Source of the DNA: Labia minor
Lineage: Eukaryota > Arthropoda > Insecta > Dermaptera > Spongiphoridae
Assembly: GCA_963082975.1 (NCBI GenBank)
Contig: OY720346.1
Coordinates: 34,809,787-34,873,786, forward strand
DNA: 64,000 nucleotides
Direction: 5' to 3'
Shown here: positions 794-60,602 of the stretch, piece after piece
Layout of the letters: each line of letters opens with the position of its first letter
Position numbering within the stretch: position 1 is the stretch's first letter
Position numbers and translations under genes: made by a program
The notes under the pieces: generated by a model
The model's input: only the letters and a program-made list of their open reading frames with translations
What the model was told of the DNA's origin: nothing
Database searches by the model: none

Positions 794-1418
794 TTTTTAC
801 TATCTCGCCAAAGATAGTTTTGCGATCACGAAAATTTTCGATGTCGAGATTTTGATGTTTTTATACGTTTTGAAGGTCCCTGATTCATTTTCACTAAGAT
901 TGAGAAAAATGTCTGTCTATGTGTATCTCTCTGTGTGTGTGTGTGTGTGTGTGTATGTAAACAAGATTACGCAAAAAGGGTTTGAGCTAGAATAATCAAA
1001 TTTGGTACACGGGTATTATTCAAAATTCGTAGTTTTCTATCAACTTTTGAGAAATGTAGCTCAACCGGAAGAGGGTCATTACCTACTTTCATTGTTTTTG
1101 ACCGTAAAAATAAAGATATATGTTTGATAGTTTTTCACATGATTAAAAATTGTATAAAACTGCTATATATAGAATCTCAGCTTGATTGAATCCTGGAAAG
1201 TACCGGAATTAATTTTTTAACATTGTCAATCAAGGGCCAGCAGGTGACGTGGTGCCATCAACAAAGAGCCAGCCAAACATGCGCTGGTTTAATAAATATT
1301 AGGAGTATTTACTAATTTTAATTTATAATTTAATTAATTAAATTTAATTTAAATATATGTTTATATGTGATAATTAATCCAATTCAAATTGCGAGATAGT
1401 CGAGTAGAGACACTCCCG
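794..1418 (-). mobile_element. Helentron-like family A, copy 1
   Basis: Reverse-oriented copy of a non-autonomous repeat of about 600 bp. The 3' end (left) reads TTTTTACTATCTCGCC with a terminal hairpin. The 5' end (right, 1391-1417) holds GCGAGATAGT next to a GAGTGTCTC-type palindrome, here degraded. Inside is a TG/CA microsatellite (about 930-955) and the core shared by all families (TACCAAATTTC and CTTCCGGTT on the minus strand). No protein is encoded. The structure matches HINE/DINE-1 type elements; autonomous Helentron ORFs are not present in the window. Confidence 0.8.
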
Positions 1419-1483
1419 ATTTTGATTTAATATTTAGGAAAAAATGCAGTTGCCAAAATTTTATTATTTTTTAGAATTATTCT

Positions 1484-1520
<37 letters not shown>

Positions 1521-4462: not shown

Positions 4463-5326
4463 CATCGGTGGGGGAACTTTTTTAATCATTACCCCAAAAT
4501 ATTTTTGTGTAAGTTGATATTACCCGTTGGTGAAGAGCAAAAAAAAAATTAGCTGGAGTGTCTCCACTCGACTATCTCGCAATTTGAATTGGATTAAATA
4601 ATATAATATATTATATTTAAATTTAATTTAATTAATTGTAAATTATAAATAATAAATATTAAACCATCGCATGTTTGGCTTTTTGTTGATGGCACCACGT
4701 CACATGTTTACAGTGTTAAAAAATTAATTCTGGTAATTTCAGCGAATCAATAAAGCTGAAATTCTATATATAGCAGTTTTATACAATTATTAATCATCAA
4801 ATTATCAAACATATATCTTTATTTATACGGTCACTTTAGAGGAAAAAAAATCAAAACGTTGTAAGTAATGACCCTCTTCCGGTTGAGCTACATTTCTCAA
4901 AAGTTGATAGAAAACTACGAATTTTGAATAATGCCCATGTACCAAATTTCATCATTCTAGCTCAAACCGTTTTTGTGTAATCTTGGTTACATACATACAC
5001 ACACATACACACACACACACAGACATTTTTCTCAACCTTAGTGAAAATGATTCAGGAACCTTCAAAACGTATAAAAACATCAAAATCTCAACATCGAAAA
5101 TTTTCGTGATCTTACGAGATAGTAAAAAAGAAAAACAAAATCGCCTCCTTTTAGCATCATTCCAATTATATAGACCCCATGATAATTTTTAAAAGAAACA
5201 ATAACTAAAAATTTAATTTGTAAAAATACTAACAGCTTTATAAAATAGCAAAATATATACTTTTTACTCACAAGAGTTTCATTTTTACACCATTTGGGGT
5301 AATTTACCCCGGTTCCCCGACCGCTT
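4463..5326. mobile_element. hAT-type non-autonomous element, interrupted
   Basis: The left end CATCGGTGGGGGAAC pairs with the right end GTTCCCCGACCGCT as imperfect terminal inverted repeats, with a shared ATTACCCC motif just inside each. It is flanked by an 8-bp duplication, TCGTAGAT (4455-4462) and TCGTAGAA (5327-5334), seven of eight matching, the hAT hallmark. Its body is only about 290 bp once the family A insertion at 4551-5128 is removed, so it is a MITE with no transposase. The CAGCGG-type terminus is inferred from both ends. Confidence 0.75.
4551..5128 (+). mobile_element. Helentron-like family A, copy 2
   Basis: Starts with the palindrome TGGAGTGTCTCCA, then the subterminal repeat ACTATCTCGC, and ends with GAGATAGTAAAA. 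Core motifs CTTCCGGTT, TACCAAATTTC, a CATA/CACA microsatellite and AGACATTTTTCTCAACC are all present in the family order. It lies inside a hAT MITE, so it is the younger of the two. Confidence 0.85.
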
Positions 5327-5689
5327 TCGTAGAAGGATAAATAAGCGCTACAGATACGAATAGAACATCAGATAAAAAATGTATCTTTCAGAGAATATAC
5401 TAATATATTTTTAAGATTGTGTGTTTACTTTACCAAAATATTAAATCAATAAGAAATAAACTTTTATGTAAAATTGATGACACGTCATCTATAGAAAGAT
5501 TTGTTTATAAGAAAAACGAGTTCTTCATTTTAGAATTAAAGGAGATTTTTATTAAAATACCACATATTTGTATATTTTATTGATTTAATTAAATAAACAT
5601 ACAACGTTTCGACTTCTTATTTTGCAGCCGTTAACAAGTACCGTACACTTTTTCCGACTTAAATGGGATTGTTAACAATATGTTTTTCA

Positions 5690-7680: not shown

Positions 7681-7765
7681 CATCCATTTGTACTTATGAA
7701 TGTTATTTATTATTATATATTTTTAATTTTTATTCTATTAAATATTCTATTAAATATTAAAGAAA

Positions 7766-8373
7766 TTAGCTGGAGTGTCTCCACTCGACTATCTCGCAAT
7801 TTGAATTCTATTAAATAACATAATATAGTATATTTTAATTAAATTAAATTAGTTAATTTATAAATTAAAATTAATAAATAATATTTCTTAAACCAGCGCA
7901 TGTTTGGCTCTTTGTTGAAGGCACCACGTCACGTGTTGACGCGTGAGATTTGCAGTGCTAAAAAATTAATTCTGGTACTTTCAGCGATTCAATCAAGCTG
8001 AAATTCTATTTTTATATAAATTTTTATCACTTGAAAAACTATCAAACATATATCTTTATTTTTACGGACAGTTTAGAGGAAAAAAAATCAAAACGTGGTA
8101 GGTAATAACCCTCTTCCGGTTGAGCTACATTTCCCAAAAGTTGATAGAAAACTACGAATTTTGAATAATACCCGTGTACCAAATTTCAAATTTAATGACT
8201 CAAACCGTTTTTGCGTAATCTTGTTCACACACACACACACACACACAGAGAGAGACATTTTTCTCAACCTTAGTGAAAATAACTCACGAACCTTCAAAAC
8301 GTATAAAAAAATCAAAATCTCGACATCGAAAATTTTCATAATCGCAATACTATCTCTGGCGAGATAGTAAAAA
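7766..8373 (+). mobile_element. Helentron-like family A, copy 3
   Basis: Full-length copy. Both ends are clear: TGGAGTGTCTCCA plus ACTATCTCGC at the 5' end, and the perfect hairpin ACTATCTCTGGCGAGATAGT followed by AAAAA at the 3' end. A (CA)n run lies at about 8226-8246. It is directly followed by a 230-bp segment that also follows copy 5 at 27 kb in the opposite orientation, so the two copies share more than the element itself. Confidence 0.87.
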
Positions 8374-8606: not shown

Positions 8607-8740
8607 CACACACACACACAGTCATTTTTCTCAACCTTAATGAAAATGAATCAGGAACTTTCAAAACGTATATAAACATCAAAATCTCGACATCGAAAAT
8701 TTTCGTGATCGCAATACTATTTCTGGTGAGATAGTAAAAA
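8607..8740 (+). mobile_element. Helentron-like family A, copy 4 (3' fragment)
   Basis: Only the 3' portion is present, starting in the (CA)n microsatellite and running through CATTTTTCTCAACC to a degraded terminal hairpin (ACTATTTCTGGTGAGATAGT) and AAAAA. It begins exactly where segment E ends. Confidence 0.75.
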
Positions 8741-10172
8741 TTATCAACTCTGTTTAAATATGTTAAACACTATTCTAATATGAACCACGAAGAGATCATT
8801 CATGTAGGCTATTTAAATTCAGGTTGTCACATTTTAAACAGAACGCCAAAAGGGTGTGTATAAGATAATTCTATCAGATACAAAATATAAATATGTAAAT
8901 TTTATTATTTTTCAAATAGCTTTATTTTAAAGTTAAAAATTTAATTTTATATAATAAACTAAAAGATGAATATATATAGTGAAATTGATATGGATCAAAC
9001 ATATAGAAAAAAAATTAAAGCCAATATGAAAATATAAACAAGATATATCTATTAACAAGATGTGGTAAAAATATCTGACGGTTTTGAAAGTTTAAAAAAA
9101 ATTCCTTTCTATTATATTTAATTTTAGAATGTTTTGCCATTTAGAATACTTTACAAAAAAATTATATCCAAAATAATTTAAGTGTAAAAAACCACATCAG
9201 GCAAATATTCTTCCCTTCAATCAACGTATAGCTGTAGTGAGGTTTCCCATCAGATCCTGTAGCATGTTCATTCGTTGATTGATCAATAAAAAAATTTGGA
9301 TTTATGTAGTGACAGTTGACCTGATCTTTTGGCCTCCAGTATATATTTTTGTGGGTATATCTCAATACAAAGTTTTTATTTAAATAATAAAATCTATTTT
9401 TGAATTCATAAATCTATATTTTTTTTTCATTTTTAGATCTTATAAGTTTATTTCATTCATTTCTAATATATATTTAATTACTTTTACTCTGTTTAAGGAA
9501 AAGGGGGTAAAGTTAACTAGAATGTGTTACTATAGCAGTTGAAATGAACTAAATTTATACTCCTTTCTATACAACCGTCAGTTGGTTCGTAACATTATTT
9601 CTCCCTCTTTTGTGCCTCATTTATTATTTAAAATAATTAATTTACTCTGAAAAATAAGTATGGAATGAGAAATGTTTACATTTTAGTTTGAAAAGTGAAT
9701 AATGTAAATGGTGGAAACATTCATTCACTTCTAGAGATTTCCACTTTATCTCATTCCAATTTCACCCTAAAATAATATTAATACTTACCCCAATCTCAAT
9801 TTCATTCTATTAATATTGAACTTTGTATAAATCATTCCGTATTCTCTTTCACGTTTTTTTTTAATTTAATATTTATACATTTTTCTTTCCCTGAAAAATT
9901 AATTTCCTTCATATATTCCCATTTAAATTCATAAATATATATGAATTAATTAATAACATTTATTAATTCAATTATGATAAAAAGAGTAAACAAATTAATT
10001 AATTCAATAATGTCAATTAATTTATTTACACATTTAAGTATAAAAAAAATGTTAGAAGTAAAAATATACATTAAATGCAATTAAAATATTTAATTTATTA
10101 TTTTAATTTGTATAAACAATTTTATAAAAATGTTTATTGAACAACTATATTTAGAAGATATTAAAATATTAA
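8741..10172. other. AT-rich DNA, mostly featureless
   Basis: Low-complexity A/T except for a possible coding-like patch at 9170-9365. No repeat borders found. Confidence 0.5.
9170..9365 (-). other. Coding-like open stretch, unidentified
   Basis: The minus strand is open for about 65 codons with non-biased amino-acid use (tryptophan, cysteine, histidine and proline present, for example CHYINPNFFIDQ and HATGSDGKPHYSY), unlike the surrounding Lys/Asn/Ile-rich noise. No family was recognised and no clean splice pair was identified. It could be an exon, an old pseudogene or a transposon relic. Confidence 0.25.
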
Positions 10173-15545: not shown

Positions 15546-15588
<43 letters not shown>

Positions 15589-23081: not shown

Positions 23082-23124
<43 letters not shown>

Positions 23125-24050: not shown

Positions 24051-24054
24051 GGGT

Positions 24055-27223: not shown

Positions 27224-27816
27224 TTTTTACTATCTCACCAGAGATAGTATTGTGATCACGAAAATTTTCGATGTCGAGATTTTGATTTTTATATACGTTT
27301 TGAAGGTTCGTGAGTTATTTTCACTAAGGTTGAGAAAAATGTCTCACTCTCTCTCTCTGTGTATGTATGTAGACAAGATTATGCAAAAACGGTTTGAGCT
27401 AGAATAATTAAATTTGGTACACGGGTAGTTTTCTATCAACTTTTGAGAAATTTAGCTCATCCGGAAGAGGGTCATTACCTACCACGTTTTCATTTTTATT
27501 CTTCTAAAGTGACCGTAAAAATAAAGAATTATGTTTGATAATTTTTCACATGATTAAAAATTGTATAAAACTGCTATATATTAAAATTTCAGTTTGATTG
27601 AATAGCTAAAAGTACCGAAATTAATTTTTTAACACAGCAAACCACGCGTCAACACGTGACGTGGTGCCATCAACAAAGAGCCAAACACTCGCTGATTTAA
27701 TAAATATTATTTATTAATTTTCATTTATAATTTATAATTAATCAAATTTAATTTAAATATAATATATGTTATTTAATCCAATTCAAATTTGCGAGATAGT
27801 CGAGTGGAGATACTCC
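27224..27816 (-). mobile_element. Helentron-like family A, copy 5
   Basis: Reverse-oriented. The 3' end on the left reads TTTTTACTATCTCACCAGAG and the 5' end on the right carries GCGAGATAGT and a GGAGATACTCC palindrome variant. A CT/TG microsatellite lies near 27345-27372, and core motifs are present with a short deletion near 27425. Confidence 0.85.
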
Positions 27817-28556
27817 AAATTTTAAATTTTATTTTATATCTTGAATGGATGCAAAAGAGGGAATTTGAAAATTTATTAGAAGTAAAAAAAAAAAGATTGA
27901 ATGGGAAAAAAAAGTTTGATCATATTTTTTTGTTCTTCTTGTTGTTGGTCGTGAATGGAAATTTTTTTCGTTTTTTTTTCTTCTTAGGGTGACAATTATG
28001 AATTGAATGGAGCGTGGGCGACACAATGGACCGATAAAGATACTCTACTTATACAGTCACTCTAGCCTTTTTATAGCCTTTTATGTAGATCATAGTCATG
28101 TAATTTTTTTTTATTTTTCTATTTACTATATATATTATTTCTCTCTAGATAAAATATGATCAAATTAAGTGGGCAATTGTATGCGATGCATCGTTGTAGG
28201 ATGTATACGTCCTGATAAGGAAACGCTTGACTGGAGAATGACTTTTAGTTAACCTTTGTTGTGATTTTTATTGTGAATAGCTCACACAATTCATTCTATT
28301 GATTAAATTAGAAATATTATTTTTATTTAATAACTCATATGAAAATAATAATTATAATAATACTTATAAATCTTTGCTAATATTTATAGTCCTCGTATAT
28401 ATCAGAAATACATGGGTGGTCCAAAACGATTCCGAAATAACAAATCTATATTTATTTATTAATTTTTTAATCACTGATTAACAAGGAGGAGTGAAAGAAT
28501 TCAGCTAAAAAAAACAATTGTTAATTTTGAAGGGAAAGTGATAGCAAATAATTTTT
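27817..28556. other. AT-rich DNA, no gene recognised
   Basis: Contains A and T tracts and no recognised coding region. The open frames at 27789-28026 lie in low-complexity DNA on both strands and are probably chance. Confidence 0.5.
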
Positions 28557-29196
28557 ACCGAGCGACGATAGTAAGGGAGGTATTGTTTTCACACCAAATT
28601 TCACATGTGGAGATTTTTGCATATCTCCACGAATCATGCATTTTCTTAACAGAAAAAAGTATTTTTAGCATGATGTCTGTCCGTCCGTCCGTCCGTCTGT
28701 CCGTCCGTCCGTTTAGATGTGTTCAGCTTGAACGGCTCAACGGATTTTGATGAAATTTGGTATATTTACTTAATGCATCAGTATGATGAATTGATCAACT
28801 CTTGGTGCAAATCCGGGAACCGGAAGTAGTAGTATTACCGATCGACGATAGGAAGGGAAGGGTTATTTTCACACCAAATTTCACAAGAGGAGATTTTTTA
28901 CATATCACCACTAATCATGCACTTTGTGGTGGTTTTATTCTCGAGAAAAATCATCTTTATTAGTTTTTTTCTTGATTTAAAATTATATGACGTCATCCAG
29001 CCATTCATGACGTCACAACCTGGTCTTTCATATATATTATAAATAAAATAAAATTAAAAATATTTATGTAATATCCATATCTGTTTTTTATTACATTAAT
29101 AGATATATTAAAATTATTTGAAATTGTTTCTGTACCTGGAAATTAATTTATTTCAAACCGTCGGTCGGTTCGGACCTGGCCACAGGTCAACTTATT
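28557..29196 (-). mobile_element. Helentron-like family C, copy 1
   Basis: 640 bp. Oriented by homology of its core to families A and B: the 5' end (right) carries the palindrome GACCTGTGGCCAGGTC followed by CGAACCGACCGACGG, and the 3' end (left) carries CGTCG-CTCGGT as the inverted subterminal repeat. The microsatellite is (CGGA)n, seen as (GTCC)n at 28680-28710 on the plus strand. Two TGACGTCA sites start at 28988 and 29008. Confidence 0.85.
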
Positions 29197-29334
29197 ATAA
29201 TAGTGAAGGGATTACCCTCAAAAAGAAGAAACATTATAAGATAATACTAGTTAACATTACTTCCCAAAAAAATATTATATTATTATGATCTTTCAATATT
29301 ATTATATAATGTATTATAATATATATTGGTGGAG

Positions 29335-31996: not shown

Positions 31997-32187
31997 AAAT
32001 TTTGGTAATTATATTACAGACGGGCCCAACAAGGTGGGTGGTTGAAACTTACTTTGAGGGGTTCCTTGAATGATTCTGAACAACTTTATATGCAACTTTT
32101 TTTATGATCTCTTTTAGTTTAATTAATAAAGTTTATTCATATTAAAGTCATTTAAACACATTTTCGGTTTTTTAAATTCGGTTTATT

Positions 32188-32817
32188 ACCGACCGACGAT
32201 AGTAAGGGAGGTATTGTTTTCACACCAAATTTCACATGTGGAGATTTTTACATATCTCCACGAATCAAGCATTTTCTTAACAGAAAAAAGTATTTTTAGC
32301 ATGATGTCTGTCCGTCCGTCTGTCCGTCTGTCCGTATAGATGTGTACAGCCTGAACGGCTGAACGGATTTTGATGAAATTTGGTATTCTTACTTAATGCA
32401 TCAGTGGGATGATTTGATCAACTTCTGGTGCAAATCCGGAAACCGGAAGTGGTAGTATTAGCGATCGACAATAGGAAGGGAAGGGTTATTTTCATACCAA
32501 ATTTCACATGAGGAGATTTTTTACATATCATCACGAATCATTCACTTTGCATTGGTTTTATACTCGAGAAAAATCATCTTTATTAGTTTTTTCTTAATTA
32601 AAATTATATGACGTCATCCAGCCCTTCATGACGTCACAGCCTGGTCTTACATATATATTATAAATAAAATAAAATTAAAAATATTTATGTTATATCCATA
32701 TCTGTTTTTTATTACATTAATAGATATATTAAAATTATTTGAAATTGTTTCTGTAGCTGGAAATTAATTTATTTAAAACCGTCGGACGGTTCGGACCTGG
32801 CCACAGGTCAACTTATT
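32188..32817 (-). mobile_element. Helentron-like family C, copy 2 (tandem with copy 3)
   Basis: 630 bp, complete at both ends. Its 5' end (right, AATAAGT... in element orientation) touches the 3' end of copy 3 with no intervening base at 32817/32818. CRE pair at 32609 and 32629. Confidence 0.88.
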
Positions 32818-33761
32818 ACCGACCGACGATAGTAAGGGAGGTATTGTTTTCACACCAAATTTCACATGTGGAGATTTTTACATATCTCCACGAATCATGC
32901 ATCTTCTTAACAGAAAAAAGTATTTTTAGCATGATGTCTGTCCGTCCGTCTGTCCGTCCGTCCGTCCGTCCGTCCGTATAGATGTGTACAGCCTGAACGG
33001 CTCAACCGATTTTGATGAAATTTAGTATATTTACTTAATGCATCAGTGGGATGAATTGATCAACTTTTGGTGTAAATCCGGAAACCGGAAGTGGTCCGTC
33101 CGTCCGTCCGTCCGTCCGTCCGTCCGTCCGTATAGATGTGTACAGCCTGAACGGCTCAACCGATTTTGATGAAATTTGGTATATTTACTTAATGCATCAG
33201 TGGGATGAATTGATCAACTTTTGGTGCAAATCCGGAAACCGGAAGTGGTCCGTCCGTCCGTCCGTCCGTCAGTATAGATGTGTACAGCCTGAACGGCTCA
33301 ACCGATTTTGATGAAATTTGGTATATTTACTTAATGCATCAGTGGGATGAATTGATCAACTTTTGGTACAAATCCGGAAACCGGAAGTGGTAGTATTAGC
33401 GATCGACGATAAGAAGGGAAGGGTTATTTTCGCACCAAATTTCACATAAGGAGATTTTTTTACATATCACCACGAATGTATTGGTTTTATCCTCGGGAAA
33501 AATCATCTTCATTATGTTTTTCTTAATTTAAAATTATATGACGTCACCCAGCCCTTCATGACGTCACAGCCTCGGGTAACGCCGGCTACTTCAGCTATAT
33601 ATTATAAATAAAATAAAATTAAAAATATTTATGTTATATCCATATCTGTTTTTTATTACATTAATAGATATATTAAAATTATTTGAAATTGTTTCTGTAG
33701 CTGGAAATTAATTTACTTCAAACCGTCGGTCGGTTCGGACCTGGCAACAGGTCAACTTATT
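32818..33761 (-). mobile_element. Helentron-like family C, copy 3, internally expanded
   Basis: 944 bp, complete at both ends but about 310 bp longer than its tandem partner because a unit of about 150 bp is present three times (32939-33388). CRE pair at 33539 and 33559. The loop of the 5' palindrome reads slightly differently (CCTGGCAACAGG). Confidence 0.88.
32939..33388. repeat. Three tandem ~150-bp units inside family C copy 3
   Basis: Each unit begins with a (CCGT)n run and continues through ATAGATGTGTACAGCC, AATGCATCAGTGGGATG and ends at CCGGAAACCGGAAGTGG. Units start near 32939, 33094 and 33248 and are almost identical, so the amplification is recent. Confidence 0.85.
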
Positions 33762-34111
33762 TTATTTTAGAAATTGTTAGATTGATACTAAAGTCATTTA
33801 AACACTTTTTCAATATTATTAATTATAAAAACAAATTTTTTATTTTTATTAATGACTAATGTATGAATGTAACTATTTCTAAAATAAAATAAACCGAATT
33901 TAAAAAACCGAAAATGTGTTTAAATCAGTCAAAATGTCAACCTAAATATGGGAAATACACTGAAAAATTAATTACTTTTTATTAATTAAACTAAAAGAGA
34001 TCATAAAAAAAAGTTGCATGTAAAGTTGTTCAGAATCATTCAAGGATCCCTTCAAAGTAAGTTCAACCACCCACCTTGTTGGGCCCGTCTGTAATATAAT
34101 TACCGAAATTT

Positions 34112-37825: not shown

Positions 37826-37838
37826 TCCTCCCCCTCTG
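37826..37838 (-). other. Polypurine tract
   Basis: In element orientation AGAGGGGGAGGA lies directly before the 3' LTR. It is the expected primer for plus-strand DNA synthesis. Confidence 0.85.
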
Positions 37839-37869
37839 ATTCCGAGGTCTTTTGATTGAGGGATCAGCC

Positions 37870-39765: not shown

Positions 39766-40357
39766 TTTTAATAGGATAATTAAATTTAATGTTAACCAAA
39801 GAGAAAAAAAATTAATTAATTAATCAAAATTAAAAGTTATTTAGTCGCGTACAATTGAATTATACAATGTTTAATTATAAAATACGATAATTGTAATATA
39901 ATTTAAAAATATATAAAAGTATTTAAATATTTGAAAATATAGTGATATTTTATCAATTTTATTAATTCATTAATTTAAATATAATGTAGTAGAATAAAAT
40001 TAAAGTTTAAAAAAAAAAATTTTTACAAATTAAACATATAAATTAATTGATTATAATTAATAATAATATTAATATATTCAAACTATTTTTATTGAATTAG
40101 AATTAAATAGATAAATATTCTATTTGTTAGATAAATGTGAAAATTAAAAATAAAAAAAATAATTAACAAGTGTTAAATATATTATTATAATAGACAAGGA
40201 GATATGATTTATTTAAATTTAAAGTATAAAAGTAAAAGTTTTAAATTTTTATTTTATTAATTAAATATTAAATTGTACTATAAGTCCGTTGAGATGAAAA
40301 CGTAATGATACTGCTCACCAAAGATGAATGTACTTTTCTCAGGAGCCGTGGTGTACT

Positions 40358-40385
40358 AATCGGGCTTCAAGTTGGGCTGCCACTT
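40358..40385 (-). other. Primer binding site region
   Basis: Immediately inside the 5' LTR, element orientation reads AAGTGGCAGCCCAACTTG. It resembles the TGGCGCCCAAC-type site complementary to tRNA-Lys used by many arthropod Gypsy elements, with one extra A. The same unit precedes it inside the LTR. Confidence 0.6.
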
Positions 40386-41284
40386 TGTAAGGAACTAATC
40401 GAGCCAAACGTTGGGCTGCCACTTTGTAAGGAGGACCGTTTCAAGTTGGGGTCACTTTGTAGACGATCCTCTTACGTTGGGTGCCAATTTATAAGGGGAT
40501 CTAAGTATGGGGCACTTGTAATGACCCACGATGACCGTGAATTGTTAATTATGTTAAGTTATTGATGGGCGCCAACTTTGGATATCCCAAAGTATAAAAT
40601 AGTGTTGAAAAATTAAGGGAAAAGGGAAAACACAATAATAATGTTCACATTAATTTACTTTAATTAAATAGATAAAAATTAACAAATTAAATATACAAAT
40701 TTTAAATAGAAAAATAAGAAAATGTAATTCACTAATATCACTGGAATTAGCGGAAATAATTATCACAGGGGGTGATGATAAGGATTATACACAAATAATT
40801 ATATCACGGGACGTGATAAGTATAGGTTATATCAGGATGATATCACTTGTTCGACTGTATCACAGGGTGTGATAAAAATGATTATGTACAAAATAATTAT
40901 ATCACGGGACGTGATAAATACCAGGTCATATCGGGATGATATCACTAGTTAAACTGTATCACAGGGTGTGATAATAAAAATGATTATATACAAAATAATT
41001 ATATCACGGGACGTGATAAATACAGGTCATATCAGGATGATATCTCACTAGTTCCACTGTCCATTCTCAACTGTTAAAAAATATTAAAACTTGGAGGGAT
41101 GGATCCTCCCCTTATGTCGAAATATATCTCTATATATATATTACATTTTAAGAATAATGCGACCAAATAACTTTGTTAAAAAAATAGGGGAATATAAAAA
41201 AAAAATAAACTAAAAAATAGATAAACAAAATAAAATGTATAATAAAAAAAAATAACTAAGAATATAAATACTTTGTCCGTTACA
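40386..41284 (-). repeat. 5' LTR of the Gypsy-like element
   Basis: 899 bp, same length and sequence as the 3' LTR. As the upstream LTR it should hold the promoter; the dyad array is at 40760-41049 and the primer-binding-like ladder at 40386-40580. Confidence 0.93.
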
Positions 41285-41810
41285 AATTTAATTTATTTTA
41301 TAATAAATAATGTTAACGATCTTAAAAAATAAATAAAAAAAAAAAAACAAAAATAAATTTCTAATTTAACCTTTCTAAATTGCAGCAATGAATCGATGTC
41401 TTTTGTCGGTACCTCGTTTTTCAATTCGACGTATATTTCATCAGAGGTGTTTCTGCTTGTGCTGCCTCTTGTTATTGGTTAACCTTTTCCAATGGGCTGG
41501 GCAACCTCTCTCCCCTCTCTACCTTCCTCAAAAACAGTTCCCTTCCTCCTCTCCCTACACCCTTCTCATTCCATATCAAACTCAATTCGATAATTAATGA
41601 ACGGCTTTGACACTTGTTGGGTCTGGTGCTGCTGTCAGAATTTTATCTAAGTAAAATCTCTCTTAGAAAAAAAAAAAGATAGACACAGACTCTTACATGA
41701 CAAGAATTAACTCTCAACCATTCATATTCAAAAATTAACTAATGAGAGTGCACATTACAATTTTAAATATTCTGAAGTTTATACTACTACTATGTTTCCA
41801 TTTGAAAAAA
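41285..41810. other. Short AT-rich flank and possible exon
   Basis: 41285-41385 is AT-rich with A runs; a possible exon starts at 41386. 41610-41810 shows nothing recognisable. Confidence 0.4.
41386..41597 (+). other. Possible exon beginning with ATG
   Basis: A pyrimidine-rich stretch ending TTTCTAAATTGCAG (to 41385) is a good splice acceptor, and two bases later an ATG opens 69 codons (MNRCLLSVPRFSIRRIF, then a Cys/Leu-rich hydrophobic stretch CFCLCCLLLLVNLF) to a TAA at 41597. Composition is clearly above background. No family was recognised. The hydrophobic stretch could be a signal or membrane segment, or simply chance in pyrimidine-rich DNA. Confidence 0.25.
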
Positions 41811-42385
41811 TCTGGAGTGTCTCCAATCGACTATCTCGCAAATTTAAATTGGATTAATTATAACATATATTTTATTTAAATTAAGTTATAAATTTTAAAA
41901 TTATTGAATAATATTATTAATATTAATCCAGCGTGTATTTGGCTCTTTGTTGATAGCACCACGTCACGTTTTGGCGCGTGATTTGCAGTCGTGCTAAAAA
42001 ATTAATTTCGGTACTTTAAGCGATTCAATCAAACTGAAATTCTAATATATAGCAATTTTATACAATTTTTAATCATGTGAAAAACTATCAAACATATTTT
42101 TTTATTTTTACGGTCACTTTAGAGGAATAAAGATGAAAACATGGTAGGTGAGGATTTCTCTAAAGTTGATAGAAAACTACGAATTTTGAATAATAACTGT
42201 GTACCAAATCTCATGATTCTAGCTCAAACTGCATAATCTTATCTACACACACACACATACAGAGAGAGAGAGACATTTTTCTCAGCCTTAGTGAAAATAA
42301 CTCACGAACCTTCAAAACGTATAAAAACATCAAAATCTCGACAAAGAAAATTATCTATCTCTCTCTCTGGCGAAATAGTAAAAAT
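41811..42385 (+). mobile_element. Helentron-like family A, copy 6
   Basis: 5' palindrome TGGAGTGTCTCCA and ACTATCTCGC are present; the 3' end is GGCGAAATAGTAAAAA with a CT microsatellite intruding near 42353-42368, so the terminal hairpin is degraded. The CTTCCGGTT core is deleted near 42147. A (CA)n run lies at 42245-42256. Confidence 0.82.
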
Positions 42386-43322
42386 AATATTGATATCGGA
42401 AAAATAATGAAAAAAATCAGAAAAATTTTAAGAACCCTCTCTAACTTAAAATTTTATACTCGTATATAAAAATTTGTTTTCGTTGTATTGAGATTTTAGA
42501 CTTATTTGAAAAGTTTAATGTAATTAAGTTAATTCTTTTTTGTTTTATCAAATTTTCATATATGCAAATAATAACTCCATGTAAAGATTCAAAATTTATA
42601 TCTCAGTCTATTTAATCTAAACTCCGATAATTTTTTTTACATATTTTCAAAATACCTATATGGAATAATATTTTTGGATTGCATATTATTATAATATTTT
42701 TATATATAATATATATAAAATTTAATTTTCATATTTTTTTTAATTTCCTTTTTTTTAATTAATTTTCTATGTAAATTACAATTTTTAATATTTAATATTT
42801 GAATAAAATTCATAAGATTTTATATTCATATATATTTTGGAAGAATATGATCCCTTAGAGATCGGCTTTGAAAGTAGTAGGGGGGTTAAGAATGAGTGAG
42901 AAGAGATAAGGTCTGTTTAGACAAGTTAATTGAAAATTTCAAGAAGAGCTTTTAAAAAGTTTCCTTGGTAAGAGATAGGCTGGAGAAGGAGGGGGTGGGA
43001 TCAATGTTTATTCTTTCTAACTTGTTTAATTACTCAAATAGGGATGGTGGAAAATGGTTGGTTGAAAAAAGGGTAAGTTAATTTTTGGAAAATTTATTCT
43101 TTCTATTACATTAAAAGAAGTAAAGAACACTAATATAAAATATTTTAATATTTGAAATATGTTTCAAGAAAAAAATGATTTTAAATTTTGGTTTTTCTTT
43201 ATCTGTGAAATTACAATTTAAATCAAATTGAAGGGTGACTTTAGGACATAGTTTAGTACACAGTTTTTCAATCTATTAAGTGATATCTTTTCATAGCATT
43301 GACTTTTTTTAATATAAAAAAT
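42386..43322. other. AT-rich DNA, no gene recognised
   Basis: Nothing recognised. A purine-rich stretch at 42840-43080 gives no product. Confidence 0.5.
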
Positions 43323-43456
43323 TCGGGAGTGTCCTCCCCTACTTTCCCGCATATAAATAGGTAATTAGGTTATTATTATTATGTTTTAACAACAATAAAA
43401 ATAAACAAACTAATTAATTTAAATTATAAAGTAAAATGGTTTAACACTATTATATA

Positions 43457-43984
43457 CAGGGTGCTTCAAAAAAATGTATACACACTTTGAACTTCCATAG
43501 AAAATTTATTTACCGTTCTACAAAGTTAAATTTCAGGAAAATAGAAAGCTGAAAGTCCAATGTAAATGAAACATAAATAACAAATGTTAATATTGTTCAA
43601 ATTGGTGACCTGAAGCATCAATACAATTCTGAGTACGAGTCACCACTGATTCTGTACATCGTATCAAAACGTCCAATGAGATTTCTCTACACACTGCTTG
43701 AATCTCATTCCAAAGAATGTCTAGGTTACGTGGTTTACGTTTGTACACCTCATCTTTTACTGTGCCCCACAAGAAGAAATCCAGTGGTGTAAGGTCTGGA
43801 GAGCGTGCTGGAAACTCGAAGAAATAATTACTGATTCTTGCCTCTCTTCAGAATGCGTAGCACGCTGCTAGCACTTACATCACTTTCACGTGCCCCTTGC
43901 CTTGAAGATTTGTTAGGAGAGCGTTGAAACAGTTCCAAAACTACAATAGTTTAAAGTGTGTATACATTTTTTTGAAGCACCCTG
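43457..43984 (-). mobile_element. Tc1/IS630-type element with complete ends
   Basis: 528 bp with long terminal inverted repeats (CAGGGTGCTTCAAAAAAATG and complement, extending through TATACACACTTT) and a TA duplication on each side (43455-43456, 43985-43986). It keeps only the end of the transposase gene, so it is an internally deleted, non-autonomous copy inserted in family B copy 1. Confidence 0.88.
43587..43800 (-). pseudogene. Tc1/IS630-type transposase C-terminal fragment
   Basis: Minus strand: an LDFFLWGTVKDEVY-type stretch (from about 43785 downwards), then RKPRNLDILWNEIQAVCREI and later RTQNCIDASGHQFEQY to a stop at 43587. The LWG.VKD.VY...P..LD pattern is characteristic of the C-terminal region of these transposases. 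The catalytic Asp residues upstream are missing. Confidence 0.75.
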
Positions 43985-44984
43985 TATATTTATAATTTAC
44001 ACCTAACGCTACTTGTATAGGTAAAATGTCACTTCCGGTAGTCAGATCATGATGAAATTTGGTATCTGAATTTTTTTCATATTTTTAAATCTATATACAA
44101 AATAGGAAGCAAATAGCTCGAAGCAAACTGGTACTTTACTTGAAAGGTAAACGCAACCAGTGTAGGTAAAGTACCACTTCCGGTTAACCGATTTTGACAA
44201 AATTTTGATAGAAATCTACAAACTGTGAATAATATCGGTGTACCAAATTTCGAAGTCCTAGCTTGATTAGTTTTTGAGTAAATTTGCTCATAGACATTAC
44301 AAACATACATACATACATACATACACACACAGACATAATTCGAAAAATGTTATTTTCCGACTCAGGGAGGTCTAAAACGTCAAGATCTATCGAAATCTCG
44401 AAGTCGAAATTTTTGACGATTCCAATACTTCCCTTAAGTATACGAAGTATGCAGGAAAGTAAAAATCATGAATAATAGTTTTAAGGGAAAAATCACTAAA
44501 ACATTTTTGAGAAAACGTAATTAAAATAAATATATTTGTATTAATTTATTAGGAAATCTTATCTTATTCTATCTTGAAGGATTCTGAAGGCGTTTAAGGT
44601 TTAATAAAATAGAAGTGAAAGTCAAATCCGACTTAATGTTAAAATAAATATATACACTATTATTATTTTATAACAGATGGATAATAGAAAATCAAAAACA
44701 ATAAATAAAGAAATTAGTTTAACATTAAAAAAAAGTAGGAATAGATAATAAAATACCTCAATATAAAAATGTTAATTAAAGAATTGAATCATATATATAT
44801 ATAATATAATAGAATAATATAATATTGAAAATTGAATTTATTTCTTATCTTGATAATATATATTAATAAAATGCAAATGTTATGGGAGAAAAATAACATG
44901 TTTTTATATATGTATGTAGGCTAGAATTGATGTAAAATATAGAGAAAAAAATAGGAATTAGAATAGAAAGAGACCACTCTCTAT

Positions 44985-45256: not shown

Positions 45257-45264
45257 CTCTCTAT

Positions 45265-48157: not shown

Positions 48158-48604
48158 GTAATCAGATTAAAAAAAAGTGAATGTATCTTATTTATATATA
48201 AATACTATATAACACTAGAACTCATGATTTTTTTCATTCTATTTCCTTACTAACTTTAATTGATTCCATTCATCAAGGATATTTAAATAACTAGATATTA
48301 AGAACATTAAATTATAATAGGCTATGGAATTTACAACAAAAAAAAGTGTAAGAACTTAATTAACGTTAACATAAAATAAAATATTTTCTTTAATAATTGT
48401 ATTAAAAGAGAGCATCAAAAAATATTTTGAAAAATTCTTAGATACCAGCACGTCATGAAGAACCTAAATCTTTATAGAACTTTTTTTTTTTAAATAAGAT
48501 TGGGAACAGATAATCTGCCTTTTTTTAAATTTTACACACAGGGTTGGTTCTCTTACTTGACATCCTACAGATATGTAATATATGCTATATATTAGATGTT
48601 ATTT

Positions 48605-49150
48605 ATTTTTACTACCAGAGATAGAATTGCGATCACGAAAATTTTCGATATTGAGATTTTTATGTTCTATACGTTTTAGAGGTTCCTGAGTCATTTTCAC
48701 TAAGGCTGAGAAAAATGTCTGTCTGTGTGTGTTTAAGCTGAAATAATGAAATTTGGTACACGGGCATTATTCAAAATTCGTAGTTTTCTATCAACTTTTG
48801 AGAAATGAAGCTCAACCGGAAGAGGGTCATTACCTACCACGTTTTGATTTTTTTTCCTCTAAAAGTCTAAAGTGACCGTAAAAATAAAGATATACATTTG
48901 ATAGTTTTTCACAAGATTAAAAATTGTATAAAACTTTTATATATAGAATTTCAGCTTGATTGAATCGCTGAAAGTACCGGAATTAATTTTTTAACACTGC
49001 AAAACAAGCGCCAGCACGTGCCGTGTTGCCAAACACGCGCTTATTTATTAATTTTAATTTATAATTTAATTAATTAAATTTAATTTAAATCTAATATATG
49101 TTAATTAATCCAATTCAACTTGCGAGATAGTCTAGTGGAGACACTCCAGC
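48605..49150 (-). mobile_element. Helentron-like family A, copy 7
   Basis: Reverse orientation. The 3' end on the left is TTTTTACTACCAGAGATAG with a damaged hairpin; the 5' end on the right reads GCGAGATAGTCTAGTGGAGACACTCCA. The microsatellite has shrunk to a few TG units (48720-48732). Core motifs are intact. Much of the CGTG-containing 5' part is shortened. Confidence 0.83.
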
Positions 49151-51196: not shown

Positions 51197-51406
51197 TTTT
51201 TAAAAAATTGATTTGTAATTTAAATTAAAGAAATATTTTAAATAAGCGGGAGTGTCCTCCCCTAGACTTTCCCGCATATAAATAGGTATAAAGAGTTGTC
51301 AATGAATATTTAGAATGTGTAAACTTGGTATTGATAAAGAGCCAGTTCGTATTAGTTTATTGGTGTCAAATTTGATATTTGGTAACATTTATATATATAT
51401 ATATTA

Positions 51407-51668
51407 GGGGCAGCATGGCTGAGTGGGTAGAGTACTAGATTTCTACACAGGAAGCCTGAGTTCGAATCCCAGCATAGAACTCAAGATTTTATATTTATTT
51501 AATTAATAAATAAATATAAAAATTTAATTCAATTTAACAACGGCTGCCCCACCGAAGAAGGCAAGGGGAAACCACTTCGGTCAAATTTCCCCATGAACAC
51601 CCTATGACTCCTGTGGAGTTATTAGGGCCACGACACTTCCGCTAGGAAGTTATCGACAACGAAGAAGA

Positions 51669-51670
<2 letters not shown>
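51407..51670 (+). mobile_element. tRNA-derived SINE, copy 2
   Basis: The head is clearly tRNA-like, with box A TGGCTGAGTGG (51416) and a perfect box B GTTCGAATCCC (51460-51470). The middle domain AATTCAATTTAACAAC, then GCTGCC, is shared with the SINE at 2989. The tail is (GAA)n. It is flanked by (TA)n on both sides, which hides any target duplication. The body beyond the head rules out a plain tRNA gene. Confidence 0.8.
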
Positions 51671-51707
<37 letters not shown>

Positions 51708-51736
51708 AAAGTTCTACTTCCGGTTAACTGATATTT

Positions 51737-52257
51737 TAAATGTAAAAAAAACAGATATGGATATAATATAAATATTTTTAATTTTATTTTATTTATAATA
51801 TATAAGGGCTGGCTGTGACGTCATAAAGTGCGGGGTGACGTCATATAATTTTAAATTAAGAAAAAACTAATGAAGATGATTTTTCTCGTGGATAAAACCA
51901 ATACAAAGTGCATAACACGTGGAGATATGCCCTCACGTGAAATTTGATATGAAAATAACCCTTCACTTCCTCTCTTCGATCGGCAATACTAGCACTTCCG
52001 GTTTCCAGATTTGCACCAAAAGCTGATCAATTCATCCTACTGATGTATTAAGTAAATATACCAAATTTCATCAAAATCCGTTGAGCCGTTCAGGCTGTAC
52101 ACATCTATACGGACGGACAGACAGACGGACGGACAGACATCATGCTAAAAATAATTTTTTCTGTTAAGAAAATGCATTCGTGGAGATATGTACCTAAAAA
52201 TATCCATAGGTGAAATTTGGTGTGAAAACAATACCTCCCTTACTATCGTCGGTCGGT
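51737..52257 (+). mobile_element. Helentron-like family C, copy 4 (5' truncated)
   Basis: The 3' end TACTATCGTCGGTCGGTAA is intact at 52241-52258; the 5' palindrome and subterminal repeat are missing, since the match starts near ACAGATATGGATATAA. The (GACG)n-type microsatellite is short. The CRE pair is kept at 51816 and 51836. Confidence 0.8.
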
Positions 52258-52337
52258 AAAAAAGAAACGCTACTTGTATAGGTAAAATGTCACTTCCGGT
52301 AGTCAGATCATGATGAAATTTGGTATCTCAATTTTTT

Positions 52338-52557
52338 TCATATTTTTAAATCTATATACAAAATATGAAGCAAATATCTCGAAGCAAACTGGTACTTTAC
52401 TTGAAAGGTAAACGCAACCAGTGTAGGTAAAGTACCACTTCCGGTTAACCGATTTTGACGAAATTTTGATAGAAATCTACAAACTGTGAATAATATCGGT
52501 GTACCAAATTTCGAAGTCCTAGCTTGATTAGTTTTTGAGTAAATTTGCTTACATACA

Positions 52558-52588
<31 letters not shown>

Positions 52589-52775
52589 CATACACACACA
52601 CAGACATAATTCGAAAAATGGTATTTTCCGACTCAGGGAGGTCTAAAACGTCAAGATCTATCGAAATCTCGAAGTCGAAATTTTTGACGATTCCAATACT
52701 TCCCTTAAGGTAAGTGTCCACTTGAGACAAATTCTCGAGAGAAAGTCTCGAGATTAGTTCCGAAGTGTTGTCCAT
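52338..52775 (-). other. Chance open frame across family B and the D2 end
   Basis: 145 codons open on the minus strand, but it runs through the (CATA)n microsatellite (giving VCMYVCMYVC) and the Helentron-like core, with the ends in unrelated elements. I regard it as non-coding; it is listed because it is the second longest open frame in the window. Confidence 0.6.
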
Positions 52776-53086: not shown

Positions 53087-53090
53087 TTTT

Positions 53091-53710
53091 ACCGACCAAC
53101 GATAGTAAGGGAGGTATTGTTTTCACACCAAATTTCACATGTGGAGATTTTTACATATCTCCACGAATCATGCATTTTCTAAACAGAAAAAGGTATTTTT
53201 AGCATGATGTCTGTCCGTCTGTGTGGATGTGTACAGCCTGGATGGCTCAACCGATTTTGATGAAATTTGGTATATTTACTTAATGCATCATTGGGATGAA
53301 TTGATCAACTTTTGGTGCAAATCCGGAAACCGGAAGTGGTAGTATTAGCGATCGACGAAAGGAAGGGAAGGGTTATTTTCACACCAACTTTCACATGAGG
53401 AGGTTTTTATATATATCACCACGAATGTATTGGTTTTATCCTCGGGAAAAATCATCTTCATTATGTTTTTCTTAATTTAAAATTATATGACGTCACCCAG
53501 CCCTTCATGACGTCACAGCCTCGGCTAACGCCGGCTACTTTAGCTATATATTATAAATAAAATAAAATTACAAATATTTATGTTCTATCCATATCTGTTT
53601 GTTATTACATTAATAGATATATTAAAATTATTTGAAATTGTTTCTGTAGCTGGAAATTAATTTATTTCAAACCGTCGGTCGGTTCGGACCTGGCCACAGG
53701 TCAACTTATT
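53091..53710 (-). mobile_element. Helentron-like family C, copy 5, inserted in D2
   Basis: 620 bp, complete. D1 preserves the empty site ATTCATTTTT|TAAAAAATTG, so the insertion lies exactly between two T residues without duplication. CRE pair at 53488 and 53508. The microsatellite is nearly lost (GTCCGTCTGTGTGG). Confidence 0.92.
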
Positions 53711-56343: not shown

Positions 56344-56345
56344 TA

Positions 56346-59300
56346 TATCTATTTAAATGTTAATTTTTCGTAGCCAAAATTATTTATAATTAATAGGATT
56401 TTTCTGAATAATTTATTCGTTAATTTAATAGGAGGTTGCTAGATTTGTAATTCATGACAATTTTGAAGATTTCATTCTTAGCTATTAATCCATAAATTTC
56501 CATCAATATTTAAAATACTATAAATTTTATAAAAAATGTATCTATCTTTCTAATAATTTGAAAATAAATCTTAAAATTATTATTATTTATAGTAATAGGA
56601 AGTTTATTTGACTTTTTGTATATATACACTCATATGTGATCAATATTTTTTTAATGAAATATGGTATAAAAATTGATTTGAAATCACAATTGTCATTGTC
56701 AACATATTATCCTATACTTTCTATTCTCTTCACGTTCTTTTGTATCTTTACTGTCGGGCATAATATGACAAACAAATCACAGATAAAAAGAGAAATGAAG
56801 GACAAAATTCAATTGTAATTAATCCTCCCATGTTCTTTATCATAAACGTAAAGGTATATCTTATTTTTTTTTTATTATAAAGTTTTTATCAAAATAGGGA
56901 AAGTAATTTTCTTAAATGTAATGTTATACGTTCTCCATATACGGAAGACGAAACTTGATTGCTATTCATTTGCTTATTAATGAATAAACTAACCATCAAT
57001 GGTGTATTTTTTTTTCTTGTATTCCTCCTCTAATATATTTTAAATAAACATTCCATTGGTAATTGTATCCACTTTTGGATATCAATTTGACCTTTTGATC
57101 CTTTAAACCTTATCTCGATTCAATTAAAAAGCTCTTTTTATGGTAGATTAAAAGTAGAAAAAAAAATCTTTAATAAAAAGTTTATTAACTGTATCTGTAA
57201 ATTAGAGGAATTTTATTAATTAATTAAAAATGAAACTATCCTTTGGTTTTTTTTGCAACAAGAAATTATCTCATAATGTTTCGATTTTAACGATAAATAA
57301 TAAATAATTAAGATAAAATCTGATAATACACTATTTATAAAACTTTTAGAAGAGTTAAATGACTACTCAAAAAATTGCATAAACTATTTCATTATAGAAT
57401 CCTTTTATAATCAAATGCAAGTGCAGAATGCTATTAAATCAATAATACTAAAAAACAAAATTTCATTTTATTGAAATTTATAAAGATTAATTAATTTTAA
57501 CTCATTGTCAGTTTTATATAATTAAACTCTCAGCTCTTTTGATATTAATGTATAATAAATGAATTATTTAAATGTAATAATTATTTAATTTAATAAAATT
57601 AATTAATTTTAAATATTTTTTTAATTAAAATATAATATATTATTATACAAAATTATTTATTGGCTTATTGTGTGCCATAAAATCAAGCAAGAGACATTTG
57701 CCAACTGTAATGTCAGACTAACCTTCAAGATTATTGAAGGGTTTTAAGAATAAGAAAATAAAAACTGAAAACTGATAAGTATATAAGCAGTTGTAATCAA
57801 TATTCATAAGGTAGGTACATTAGATTTTTATCTGTTCATATTGTATTTATTTTTCACTTGATTCGTTTGAAATCTGTACTTTTATATGGATTGTTCTTTT
57901 TGCTCCAATTATGCTCCAATATTTTGTTTTTACATCATTTTGAGAAGAAAAGTATTTTATTTTAAAAGTCATTTACTGGAATTCAAAAACTGAAAATTTC
58001 CTGTGTATGACAGTTCCATTTATTTTAAAAAAAAACTGTTTTAGAACTTTAGACGACACATTGACTGGAGGACAGATAACATGCTATTCTCTTACTTGAC
58101 CCTTGGGGATGTAAGAAGACAAAGGGTTAGAAACTACTGACCGATTCAAATTTCTGTAGGTTTTTTTTTCATAAAATGAAAATTCATAGGAAGAAATATA
58201 ATTTCTAACCCCTTAAAAACAGTCATTCTTTTAAAAAAAGACCGAAATAGTAGAAATAGTTTGAACCCGATTATTTGTCGTTCATTTCTTGATGGGACAA
58301 TGTTTCAAATATTTCCCCTACTTACACAAGTAAGAGACGACAACTTTTTCAGTTTTAAAATGTAAAATTATTGATTTTGGAAAACTTTTTATTATTAGAA
58401 ATTGTCAAAGACTGGAACTTTAGGTGTCAATCATTGGAAAAATTATCAACAAGTGAGTAATTGCTCATTTTTTTTTTTGTTTTTTTTTTTAATATTTTTT
58501 TTTTGTGTAATAAACACCTTATAAACTAAACTTCTTATTCCTTGATCGTAATACTATTTTTTCAGCAGAATATAAAACAGATTTTAATTGAAATTGAAGT
58601 TTCATGTGACAAAAAGTTATGAGTGTCATACTCATCCTTTGGCCTATTAATTTTCTCTTAAGTATTTTTATAAAACATTGGTATGCAAAAACATAGATGT
58701 AAATTTATAGTGTAGGTAAAGAACATAATAAGGATTAACTTCTAAATTTGAAATAAAAGAACGGAAATGTTATGATGATATTCATTTGTTTGCTGAGAAT
58801 AAAGCCAAGTAAGTAAATGATATTATAAACATCTGAAAATATAAGAGATAATATGTTGTGAGGTATTGTCAGAGCAGATAAAAACTTCTTTTGACTTTTC
58901 TCCAAATCTCTGTTCTTAAACTTCCTTTAAACATTAATATTGTCCTACCTCTCCTAAAAATACATTTTCAATTAATTCTAAGAGTTTATCACAAGACATG
59001 TATGAGACATCCTGAATATTTATAATTCATTTAAAAAAAATATTACATTTAAGAAAATTTATTAATATAATCATTTTAATCAAAACAAATAAGGAATTTA
59101 CATATTTTTATCATGCTTATTAAATTATAAGAACTTTTAATTAGATAATTAATAAATTTAAATTGGATATATTAATTTAAGATTAAGATTATTAATTAAT
59201 TACGATTATTTTTTTATTTATTTGTATTAATAATAAATTTCGTTAGACTAGTAAGAAATTGAAAGAAATTCTTAAAAAGAAACTAAAATAAAAAAAGATA

Positions 59301-60223
59301 TTTATATTTAAATAAGAATTTTCAGTTTATTTCTAATTGACAGAGACAAAGCGGTTTTCGACCGGTTTATTTAAGAAAATTAAAGATTATCATGATAGAA
59401 GTAAAAAAAATTTGTTCTCATCCATATCAACATTGAAAAAAAAATACATCAAGAGAAAAATGTGAAGAAAAATTAAGACAACTTAATAAAGGATTTTCAC
59501 TTTCGTTTTCCGCTGGATCATAAATTGTATAAATCCAAAAAAAAATGGAGATTATAATATTTTAATGATCTTCAAAATGATTAGAATATAAAGAAAACTT
59601 TTTAAATATTTAATAGTTATAGATAGAGTGGAATTTATAAATGAGTTTAAAGATTTAAAATTTATAATAATAATTTCACTCATAAAAATATGTCTTTAAA
59701 ATTAAATGACAACTTTAGACGTGTGTTTTGATTCTTAGAAGCTTCCTCATTTTTTAAATAAACAGAAATAATTTTATTTTATCAAGTAAAAATTTTAAAT
59801 ATAAATTATAATCACAATTTTAATAAAAAAATAATAATTTGTTAATATTAAATAATTTATAATTTATGTATTTTACTTTTAGAAATTCAAAAATAATATT
59901 TTTAGTTTTATTTTTATTCCTTCTTAATATAGTTTTAATTTTAGAAATTTATAAAGGAATGGATATAAAATTGAGATTATTATTCCACACAACAAATGAT
60001 TTTTCTAAATTGTTATTCATATCATAATTATTTTTATATTTTATATTTTAGCTGTAATTAGTCTAGATTATTTTAAATTAATTCAGGTAATAAAAATCTG
60101 TAATGATACTTTATATAAATATTTTAATTGAATATATCATTTAAACTATAAATATATGTATATATAATAAAACACCTAAATTATATTTCAGAAATCAATT
60201 CTTCATATTTTTATAAATAATAT
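56346..60223. other. AT-rich DNA, no gene recognised
   Basis: Nearly 4 kb of low-complexity A/T. 58060-58150 and 57660-57740 have slightly mixed composition but no recognised product or repeat border. Confidence 0.5.
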
Positions 60224-60602
60224 AAAACCAAAACAAAGTGGATGATTTGTGGAGATTTGTAAAAAACCTCCTCATGTGAAAGTTGGTGTGAAAATAACCC
60301 TTCCCTTCCTATCGTCTATCGGTAATACTACCACTTCCGCTTTCTGGATATACACCAAAAGTTGATCAATTCATCATATTGATGCATTAAGTAAATACAC
60401 CAAATTTCATCAAAATCCGTTGAGCCGTTCAAGCTGTACACATCTGTTCGGACACATAGCGGACGGATGGACGGACGGACAAACATCAAGCTAAAAATAC
60501 TTTTTTCTGTTAAGAAAATGCATGATTCGTGGAGATATGTAAAAATCTCCACATGTGAAATTTGGTGTGAAATCAATACCTTCCTTACTATCGTCGGTCG
60601 GT
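60224..60602 (+). mobile_element. Helentron-like family C, copy 6 (5' truncated)
   Basis: The 3' end TACTATCGTCGGTCGGTAA is intact and the core (CACTTCCG, ACACCAAATTTCATC) and a short (GGAC)n run (60463-60480) are present. The 5' half, including the CRE pair and palindrome, is missing. Confidence 0.82.

Follow-up and report, generated by a model that had tools for sequence, protein, structure and literature searches.

Introduction

Helentron-associated interspersed elements (HINEs) have been described as deletion derivatives of Helentrons that encode Rep, helicase and endonuclease and carry a GSPH Rep motif (PMC4067079). In the mite HINEs, the 5′ end is followed after 2-4 nt by a subterminal inverted repeat (subTIR), the 3′ subTIR lies 38-60 bp inside the element, and a palindrome is found 8-35 bp from the end (PMC4067079). 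DINE-1 has 13-bp subTIRs, a partial inverted repeat at the 5′ subTIR, a block A with a core of about 90 bp and a GTCY microsatellite, a conserved 3′ block, a 3′ stem-loop and TT insertion; its subTIR occurs in five types in 11 species, three of them in D. willistoni, and the core is kept in all types (PMC2374699). Cg_HINE of the Pacific oyster comprises many families with a 5′ subTIR, an inverted repeat and a microsatellite (GTCY in several) and with a 3′ subTIR and palindrome; related families show diagnostic changes in subTIR, inverted repeat and microsatellite, and some share their flanks and not their centre (PMC7492417). The lepidopteran Hel-2, with canonical Helitron ends, carries (CTGT)n behind its 5′ subterminal repeat (PMC4344730). 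We analysed a stretch of 64,000 nt from Labia minor (Dermaptera; GCA_963082975.1, contig OY720346.1), called the window, in which a first-pass annotation had proposed three Helentron-like families, A, B and C, with different ends and one shared internal module.

The window corresponds to C4:34809787-34873786 in our contig numbering and is part of a genome of 604 Mb in 71 contigs. Our data indicate that A, B and C are three diverged HINE families that inherited a 5′ block together with its core and would be moved with proteins of full-length Helentrons. We assign this reading a probability of roughly 0.84.

Results

Anatomy and orientation of the three families

The consensuses of A (618 bp), B (651 bp) and C (633 bp) have the same order: TT, subTIR, inverted repeat, about 90 bp, microsatellite, core, middle, 3′ subTIR, palindrome, CTTA, TT. 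The subTIRs of the consensuses are inverted between the two ends, with ACTATCTCGC/GCGAGATAGT in A, ACTTTCCCGC/GCGGGAAAGT in B and ACCGACCGACG/CGTCGGTCGGT in C, and agree with the length of about 10-15 bp by which HINEs are recognized. The 5′ inverted repeat is complementary to the subTIR to a varying degree and ends in GTATTG. ATGTCTGT leads into the microsatellite, which is (GT)n/(GTAT)n in A, (GTAT)n in B and (GTCC/GTCT)n in C, with a GTCTGT start. The core belongs to this 5′ block, in which it comes after the subTIR, the inverted repeat and the microsatellite. In family C, a second, diverged copy of the element's own first ~90 bp follows the core. The 3′ terminus is CTTA in the consensuses and CTAA in some A copies. 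The subterminal repeats and three microsatellite types noted in the first-pass annotation are present; its short motifs AGACAT and CAATAC were found in most copies but not in all.

In the A, B and C consensuses, a palindrome can be seen in the sequence outside one subTIR. Published mite HINEs have their palindrome in this position at the 3′ end; the palindrome end is accordingly 3′ here as well, and the earlier assignment of the palindrome to the 5′ end was made on the wrong strand. All strands given here follow the Helentron orientation, opposite to that of the first reading. Folding against shuffled sequences showed a strong 5′ hairpin in A (z −5.0), a non-significant one in B (z −1.8) and none in C (z −0.2), while the 3′ fold gave z −4.1 in C, −3.1 in B and −1.8 in A. 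A canonical Helitron (5′ TC, 3′ CTRR, A-T insertion, no subTIR) was considered and is ruled out by the TTAC...CTTA ends, the T-run sites and the subTIRs. The assignment of A, B and C to the HINEs, i.e. to non-autonomous Helentrons, is supported by the subTIRs, the 3′ palindrome, empty sites of the form T^T and a Helentron-type coding element with the 5′ block and 3′ tip of A.

Genome-wide counts confirm the repeats and show enormous amplification. There are 33,706 exact matches to the spaced core CTTCCGGTT-N55-TACCAAATTTC and 0 to its reversed control; exact 3′ tips number 3,987 for A and 12,092 for C, with controls at 0. A set of 100 core sites, all within the first 3 Mb of C1, was classed by eye into 30 A, 8 B and 62 C. 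Across 12 stretches of 4 kb, spaced regularly over C1, C2, C4, C5 and C6, the three consensuses match 5,495 of 48,000 bases (11%), with matches in 8 of the 12 stretches; the figure is rough, as some matched bases are AT-rich. Coverage of the window is 13%. Median divergence of full copies from their own consensus is 5.8% in A (17 copies) and 3.8% in C (23 copies). Searching the window with seeds A, B and C gave 9, 10 and 19 raw chains; once cross-family matches and the internal repeats of C were set aside, the counts of the first-pass annotation were recovered, with seven A copies (one of them a 132-bp piece), two B and six C.

The families are homologous beyond the core

The consensuses were compared by pairwise global alignment against 1000 dinucleotide shuffles, leaving out the microsatellite; reverse-complement controls scored at most 8. 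At the 5′ end, 75/111 positions match between A and B (z 6.0, reached by 0 shuffles), 75/101 between A and C (z 3.7, 2/1000) and 78/119 between B and C (z 5.2, 0). For the core, the values are 72/102 for A-B (z 10.7), 63/100 for A-C (z 6.0) and 67/98 for B-C (z 7.3). None of 1000 shuffles reaches any of these core scores, which together with the genome-wide copy number confirms that the shared module exceeds chance. The middle aligns between A and B (z 6.9) and gives z 0.5 and 0.7 for A-C and B-C. In the last 50 bp, A and B match at 40/47 positions (z 8.6), A and C at 28/47 (z 2.8, reached by 8/1000) and B and C at 27/44 (z 1.6, 106/1000). The earlier description of tips that differ completely does not fit these values, given the 3′ end of A and B and the first ~120 bp that C has in common with both. 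The alignments make A and B sister families in every region tested. Family C has its 5′ block and core in common with them, while the dissimilarity of its 3′ half is too great for a placement. Common ancestry of the three families is supported.

The distance from CTTCCGGTT to TACCAAATTTC is 75 bp in 14 of 15 matches in the window and 59 bp in one; CTTCCGGTT is missing from the A copy that starts at 41810. Examples on the minus strand are an A core of 75 bp at 8113..8187, which reads from CTTCCGGTT to TACCAAATTTC on the plus strand, and a B core at 44177..44251; a C core lies at 28752..28826 on the plus strand. The core contains invariant runs of 11 and 9 bp, for which column shuffling gave P 0.007 for the longest and 0.0002 for both, values that are post hoc because the tested stretch was cut at those very motifs. 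The runs would suggest constraint. At 32940-33391, the microsatellite and core of a C copy are present three times in tandem with periods of 154 and 142 bp, so this unit can start satellite-like growth.

Further comparisons used a sample of 73 merged stretches of the same genome including the window (327,514 bp), which is enriched for cores and Rep genes and is a sample, not a census. A core profile gave 78 hits in the DNA sampled. No fourth core family is clear among them: eight hits lie outside A, B and C matches, of which five are the inverted half-core of B itself and three are weak others. Another repeat, at L009:1044-1107 and L080:2514-2565, carries a weak core-like motif CGGCTGGACC...TATGAAATTT (E 0.011 and 0.052), perhaps by chance. 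The core had 0 matches in viral contigs. Core strings were not found in the paper texts searched, the single paper matching one string being concerned with human cells.

Tips pair within families, and C is nested in B

Of 76 core hits in the sample, 51 had both tips assigned and 25 lacked one or both. The tips belonged to the same family in 44 of the 51 (C 24, A 16, B 4). Seven rows were mixed: three C cores with a C 5′ and a B 3′ tip, three short B-core-like hits at the same places, and one C core with a C 5′ and an A 3′ tip. Six of them are explained by a composite of C within B at three places, and the seventh by a C fragment in front of an A copy. Among the 51 cores with both tips, no free hybrid, i.e. 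the 5′ block of one family with the 3′ tip of another, was found outside nesting or adjacency. Hybrids were also sought among the copies lacking one tip, where truncations and nested repeats were seen; the coding partner of A surfaced in that search.

The composite consists of B up to position 170 of its middle (1-170), followed by C from its first base to about position 263-269 of the 308 of its middle, and then by the 3′ part of B. It has two 5′ ends, two cores and one 3′ end. C occupies this one site in five of the six B copies that have the first part of the B middle, in one case cut to its first 68 bp; the window copy at 43310..44469 (B1) has no C at the nesting site. In three C-carrying B copies (one reduced), both tips are readable and the flanks differ, so these copies moved as units. 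In the set of 100 core sites, five of the eight B cores are accompanied on their strand by a C core at a distance of 408-454 bp.

Insertion sites

In each of the three families, T predominates among the five bases that precede the 5′ tip (19 A, 5 B and 32 C tips). After the 3′ tip, the bases are T-rich in A (32 tips); in the B (4) and C (21) tips the bases displayed there mostly still belong to the element end. To find empty sites, the two flanks were joined for each of 37 copies with both tips and searched for, and the many AT-rich chance matches were not used. Among the matches listed, out of 187, there are clean empty sites for the window C copy at 53091-53704, whose paralogous site at 51131 of the window is 95% identical over 121 bp, for a composite B that sits in an A copy and for a C inside a C. 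In these, TTT^TTT is filled by TTAC...CTTA. B and C insert between T and T in T-rich DNA, and the TT at the ends may be element sequence or duplication.

A candidate coding partner of family A

A genome search with PF14214 gave 104 matches. At C1:47868109, on the minus strand, an open frame of 2,181 aa without stops matches the Pfam Rep domain PF14214 (E 7e-25), and its Rep motif reads VEFQMRGSPHEHIFLW, the GSPH form. The C-terminal 619 aa, in one open frame, include the end of a helicase (PIF1 chains in PDB, E 5e-8). An exonuclease-III-like match in the protein (E 4.1e-4) lies far below the cut-off. Relatives of the endonuclease region in the genome have 59, 45, 36 and 32% identity; Helentrons from this comparison lie at C1:55797236 (plus), C1:44701595 (minus), C63:5288 (minus), C1:66915916 (plus) and C2:16284804 (plus). 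Upstream of the frame, the same strand carries the A 5′ block, including microsatellite and core (91% for A 1-490 and 95% for 283-517). Downstream follow the last 43 bp of A (576-618, 42/43) without the middle of A. The whole span is 12,171 bp and contains a nested C and a nested repeat. Its 3′ junction recurs at C1:44693910 (99%, query 100-348) up to the last bases of the tip and in a different flank; this second copy has a Rep match 4.5 kb away and a 98% endonuclease match 0.7 kb away. The A tip without the A middle at two places speaks against a separate A copy at the 3′ end.

Compared with this span, family A looks like an internal-deletion derivative, as if A 1-517 had been fused to the final 43 bp of the element, and the 12.2-kb element is its probable driver. 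For A, a span with Rep, helicase and endonuclease-like parts between A ends was found; for B and C, none was found among the Helentrons read.

A second Helentron-type Rep-helicase is present at C9:34490001-34504000 (L081, L082), with DUF6570 and a GSPH motif, and no endonuclease match was found after its helicase. Near-identical Rep regions occur in L076-L078. This Helentron (1,785 aa) was rejected as a partner because its 14 kb contain no A, B or C end or core; the stronger blastn matches of the region fall in AT-rich parts of the consensuses.

Copies and neighbouring features in the window

Family A is represented by full-length copies at 797..1420 (plus; 5′ TTACTATCTCGCC ... 3′ palindrome) and 7768..8373 (minus), both from consensus alignment and flanks, and at 27224..27820 (plus; core minus 16 bp; motif search, alignment and flanks). 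Consensus alignment also gave a copy with both ends and a partly lost core at 41810..42386 (minus), one with a damaged 5′ subTIR and both ends placed by alignment at 48604..49147 (plus), one without the 5′ tip at 4555..5111 (minus), and the 132-bp 5′ piece at 8610..8741 (minus). Of the two B copies, both on the minus strand, the one without C insertion (43310..44469) is split by a TA-flanked element, and the composite at 51247..52709 holds a B 5′ block with the tip lost, the 5′ block and core of the nested C (51739..52262, minus), a tRNA-like repeat and the B 3′ end. Full-length C copies on the plus strand lie at 28552..29197, at 32183..32818, which is head to tail with the copy at 32813..33764 (plus) that carries the threefold microsatellite-core unit, and at 53089..53710, the copy with the paralogous empty site. 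A further C at 60222..60604 (minus) comprises the 5′ block and internal 5′-end copy without the 3′ half.

The TA-flanked element inside B1 (43455-43986) has inverted CAGGGTGCTTCAAAAAAATGTATACAC ends, from which we take it to be mariner-like. The tRNA-like repeat inside the composite (51405-51670), perhaps a short interspersed element, contains a TTCGAATCC box; no tRNA gene (ARAGORN) or Rfam RNA was found in the window. A long terminal repeat retrotransposon at 36922-41284 has direct repeats of 904 bp (36922-37825 and 40381-41284) that are 99.9% identical, and its 649-aa frame (37873-39819, minus) has a weak match to a gag-type aspartyl protease, below the cut-off. A 122-aa frame at 52757-53122 matches the MADF DNA-binding domain (PF10545, E 8.6e-6) and overlaps the end of a C copy.

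Discussion

The first-pass annotation had suggested that one ancestral element kept an internal module while its tips were exchanged. As a general account this is not supported, and divergence fits the data better: A can be aligned with B in each of the four regions tested, change being spread along the whole element, sharing reaches the 5′ tip region, and 44 of 51 cores have tips of one family with no hybrid outside nesting or adjacency. The slight difference between the internal second 5′-end tip of C and its present one also points to drift. An exchange of tips for those of other Helentrons would find its best case in family C, where the subTIR differs (ACCGACCGACG), where the homologous 5′ block is followed by a middle that does not align and by a weakly matching 3′ end, and where the 5′ inverted repeat barely pairs with the subTIR (z −0.2 against −5.0 in A), like the relic of an older tip. 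Hybrid ends could arise from composites that combine a B 5′ and a C 5′ end with a B 3′ end, which exist complete at two places and partially at three more. Replacement of the 3′ half of C is possible; exchange of termini as the origin of all three families seems improbable to us. It could also be supposed that unrelated Helentron families each took up the same core-microsatellite sequence. That the core is the best match of A-C and B-C, and that the microsatellite-core unit multiplies alone in tandem, would agree with such a capture. Collinear homology continues to the 5′ end in all pairs, in equal order (0, 2 and 0 of 1000 shuffles reach it), and no core lies clearly outside the three families among the profile hits, and we consider a captured module highly improbable.

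Several observations weigh against three inherited HINE families with full-length drivers. The middle of C has no alignment to A or B and its 3′ end is weak, so that its 3′ half may have another origin. Consensus B was built from one full copy and one window copy, and all comparisons were made within one genome. The A 3′ palindrome fold is not significant (equalled by 13/200 shuffles), nor is the B 5′ hairpin (10/200), and the best 3′ fold of B pairs the subTIR with the tip. For A, the insertion inside another A (L004) is compatible with a T-run site with a less clean end, and the best A site is no more than compatible with T^T. In the coding element, the frame is 6.5 kb long and its domains were read from the Rep region and the C-terminal 619 aa, leaving about 4.1 kb unread; the endonuclease-like part (Exo_endo_phos_2, E 2.8e-4) scores 21.2 bits against a Pfam cut-off of 27.4, and the Peptidase_C48/Ulp1-like tail behind it (L084:2393-2999, minus; E 7e-4) scores 19.9 against 20.7. 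The A 5′ end of the element is seen in one copy and not in the second. Because A is so common, a truncated A copy of independent origin could account for the 5′ block, which lies 4.3 kb upstream of the frame. The 3′ region has a third copy (C1:7258100, 84%) that has no A tip and runs into a degenerate A 5′ end, having been either nested or switched. Finally, none of the Helentrons read has B or C ends, and the 14-kb one of C9 has no end of any of the three families.

With inheritance of the 5′ block preferred, the core would be part of this block, as in block A of DINE-1, and not a module moved between ends. It might act as a cis-acting part of the 5′ end, since short copies keep it though it shows no coding sequence; neutral retention may also account for it. 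Family A would be moved by the protein of the 12.2-kb element, and B and C by related Helentrons. Each family has a subTIR type of its own that is consistent within the family, a pattern to be expected where both ends have to be read by one protein; the subTIRs at the two ends would then drift together under a single Rep. In the accepted rolling-circle scheme for Helentrons, the 5′ end is cut, a strand is peeled off and a palindrome marks the end. Here, Rep would most likely make the 5′ cut, the helicase would help to peel off the single strand up to the 3′ palindrome that marks the end, and the peeled strand or a circle would enter a T-run. Nesting would amplify composites such as C inside B and stack 5′ blocks, as in the second 5′-end copy of C.

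Such stacking might also drive family turnover: after an element or its 5′ block had inserted into or in front of another, the composite, amplified as a unit, could give a new family with renewed ends, either when transposition starts at the new 5′ end and reads through to the old 3′ end or when one end is lost later. C would be a product, given its two consecutive 5′ ends and its unrelated 3′ half, and the B composites the intermediate. We regard this as a tentative idea with the odds clearly against it. A paper on end creation in Lep1 Helitrons is cited in the work on lepidopteran Hel-2.

The abundance of A, B and C means that annotating these families matters for this genome. To our knowledge, there has been little testing of which end letters a Helentron protein reads. 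With three related families of unlike subTIR in a single genome, and a coding element linked to one of the families, it could be tested whether subTIR, palindrome or core decides mobilization.

A, B and C are further HINE families, and their pattern matches that published for DINE-1. The layout of DINE-1/INE-1 in Drosophila agrees with theirs, while here three subTIR families coexist at very high copy number. A further difference is that the A/B/C core lies behind the microsatellite; its likeness to the DINE-1 core is one of description. The partner of A differs from published Helentrons in the Ulp1/C48-like tail after its endonuclease-like part. Helitron and Ulp1 have reportedly been named together in earlier papers (PMC2836005, PMC10175614), and no novelty is claimed for this tail. 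Central satellite arrays, present in Cg_HINE, are absent from the A, B and C consensuses, and in the oyster no autonomous element could be related to Cg_HINE (PMC7492417). With the HINEs and Helentrons of mite, mosquito and fly, the families described here share the relation of HINE to Helentron by deletion, as it appears in A, as well as subTIRs, a palindrome outside the 3′ subTIR, a T-rich target and the GSPH motif (PMC4067079).

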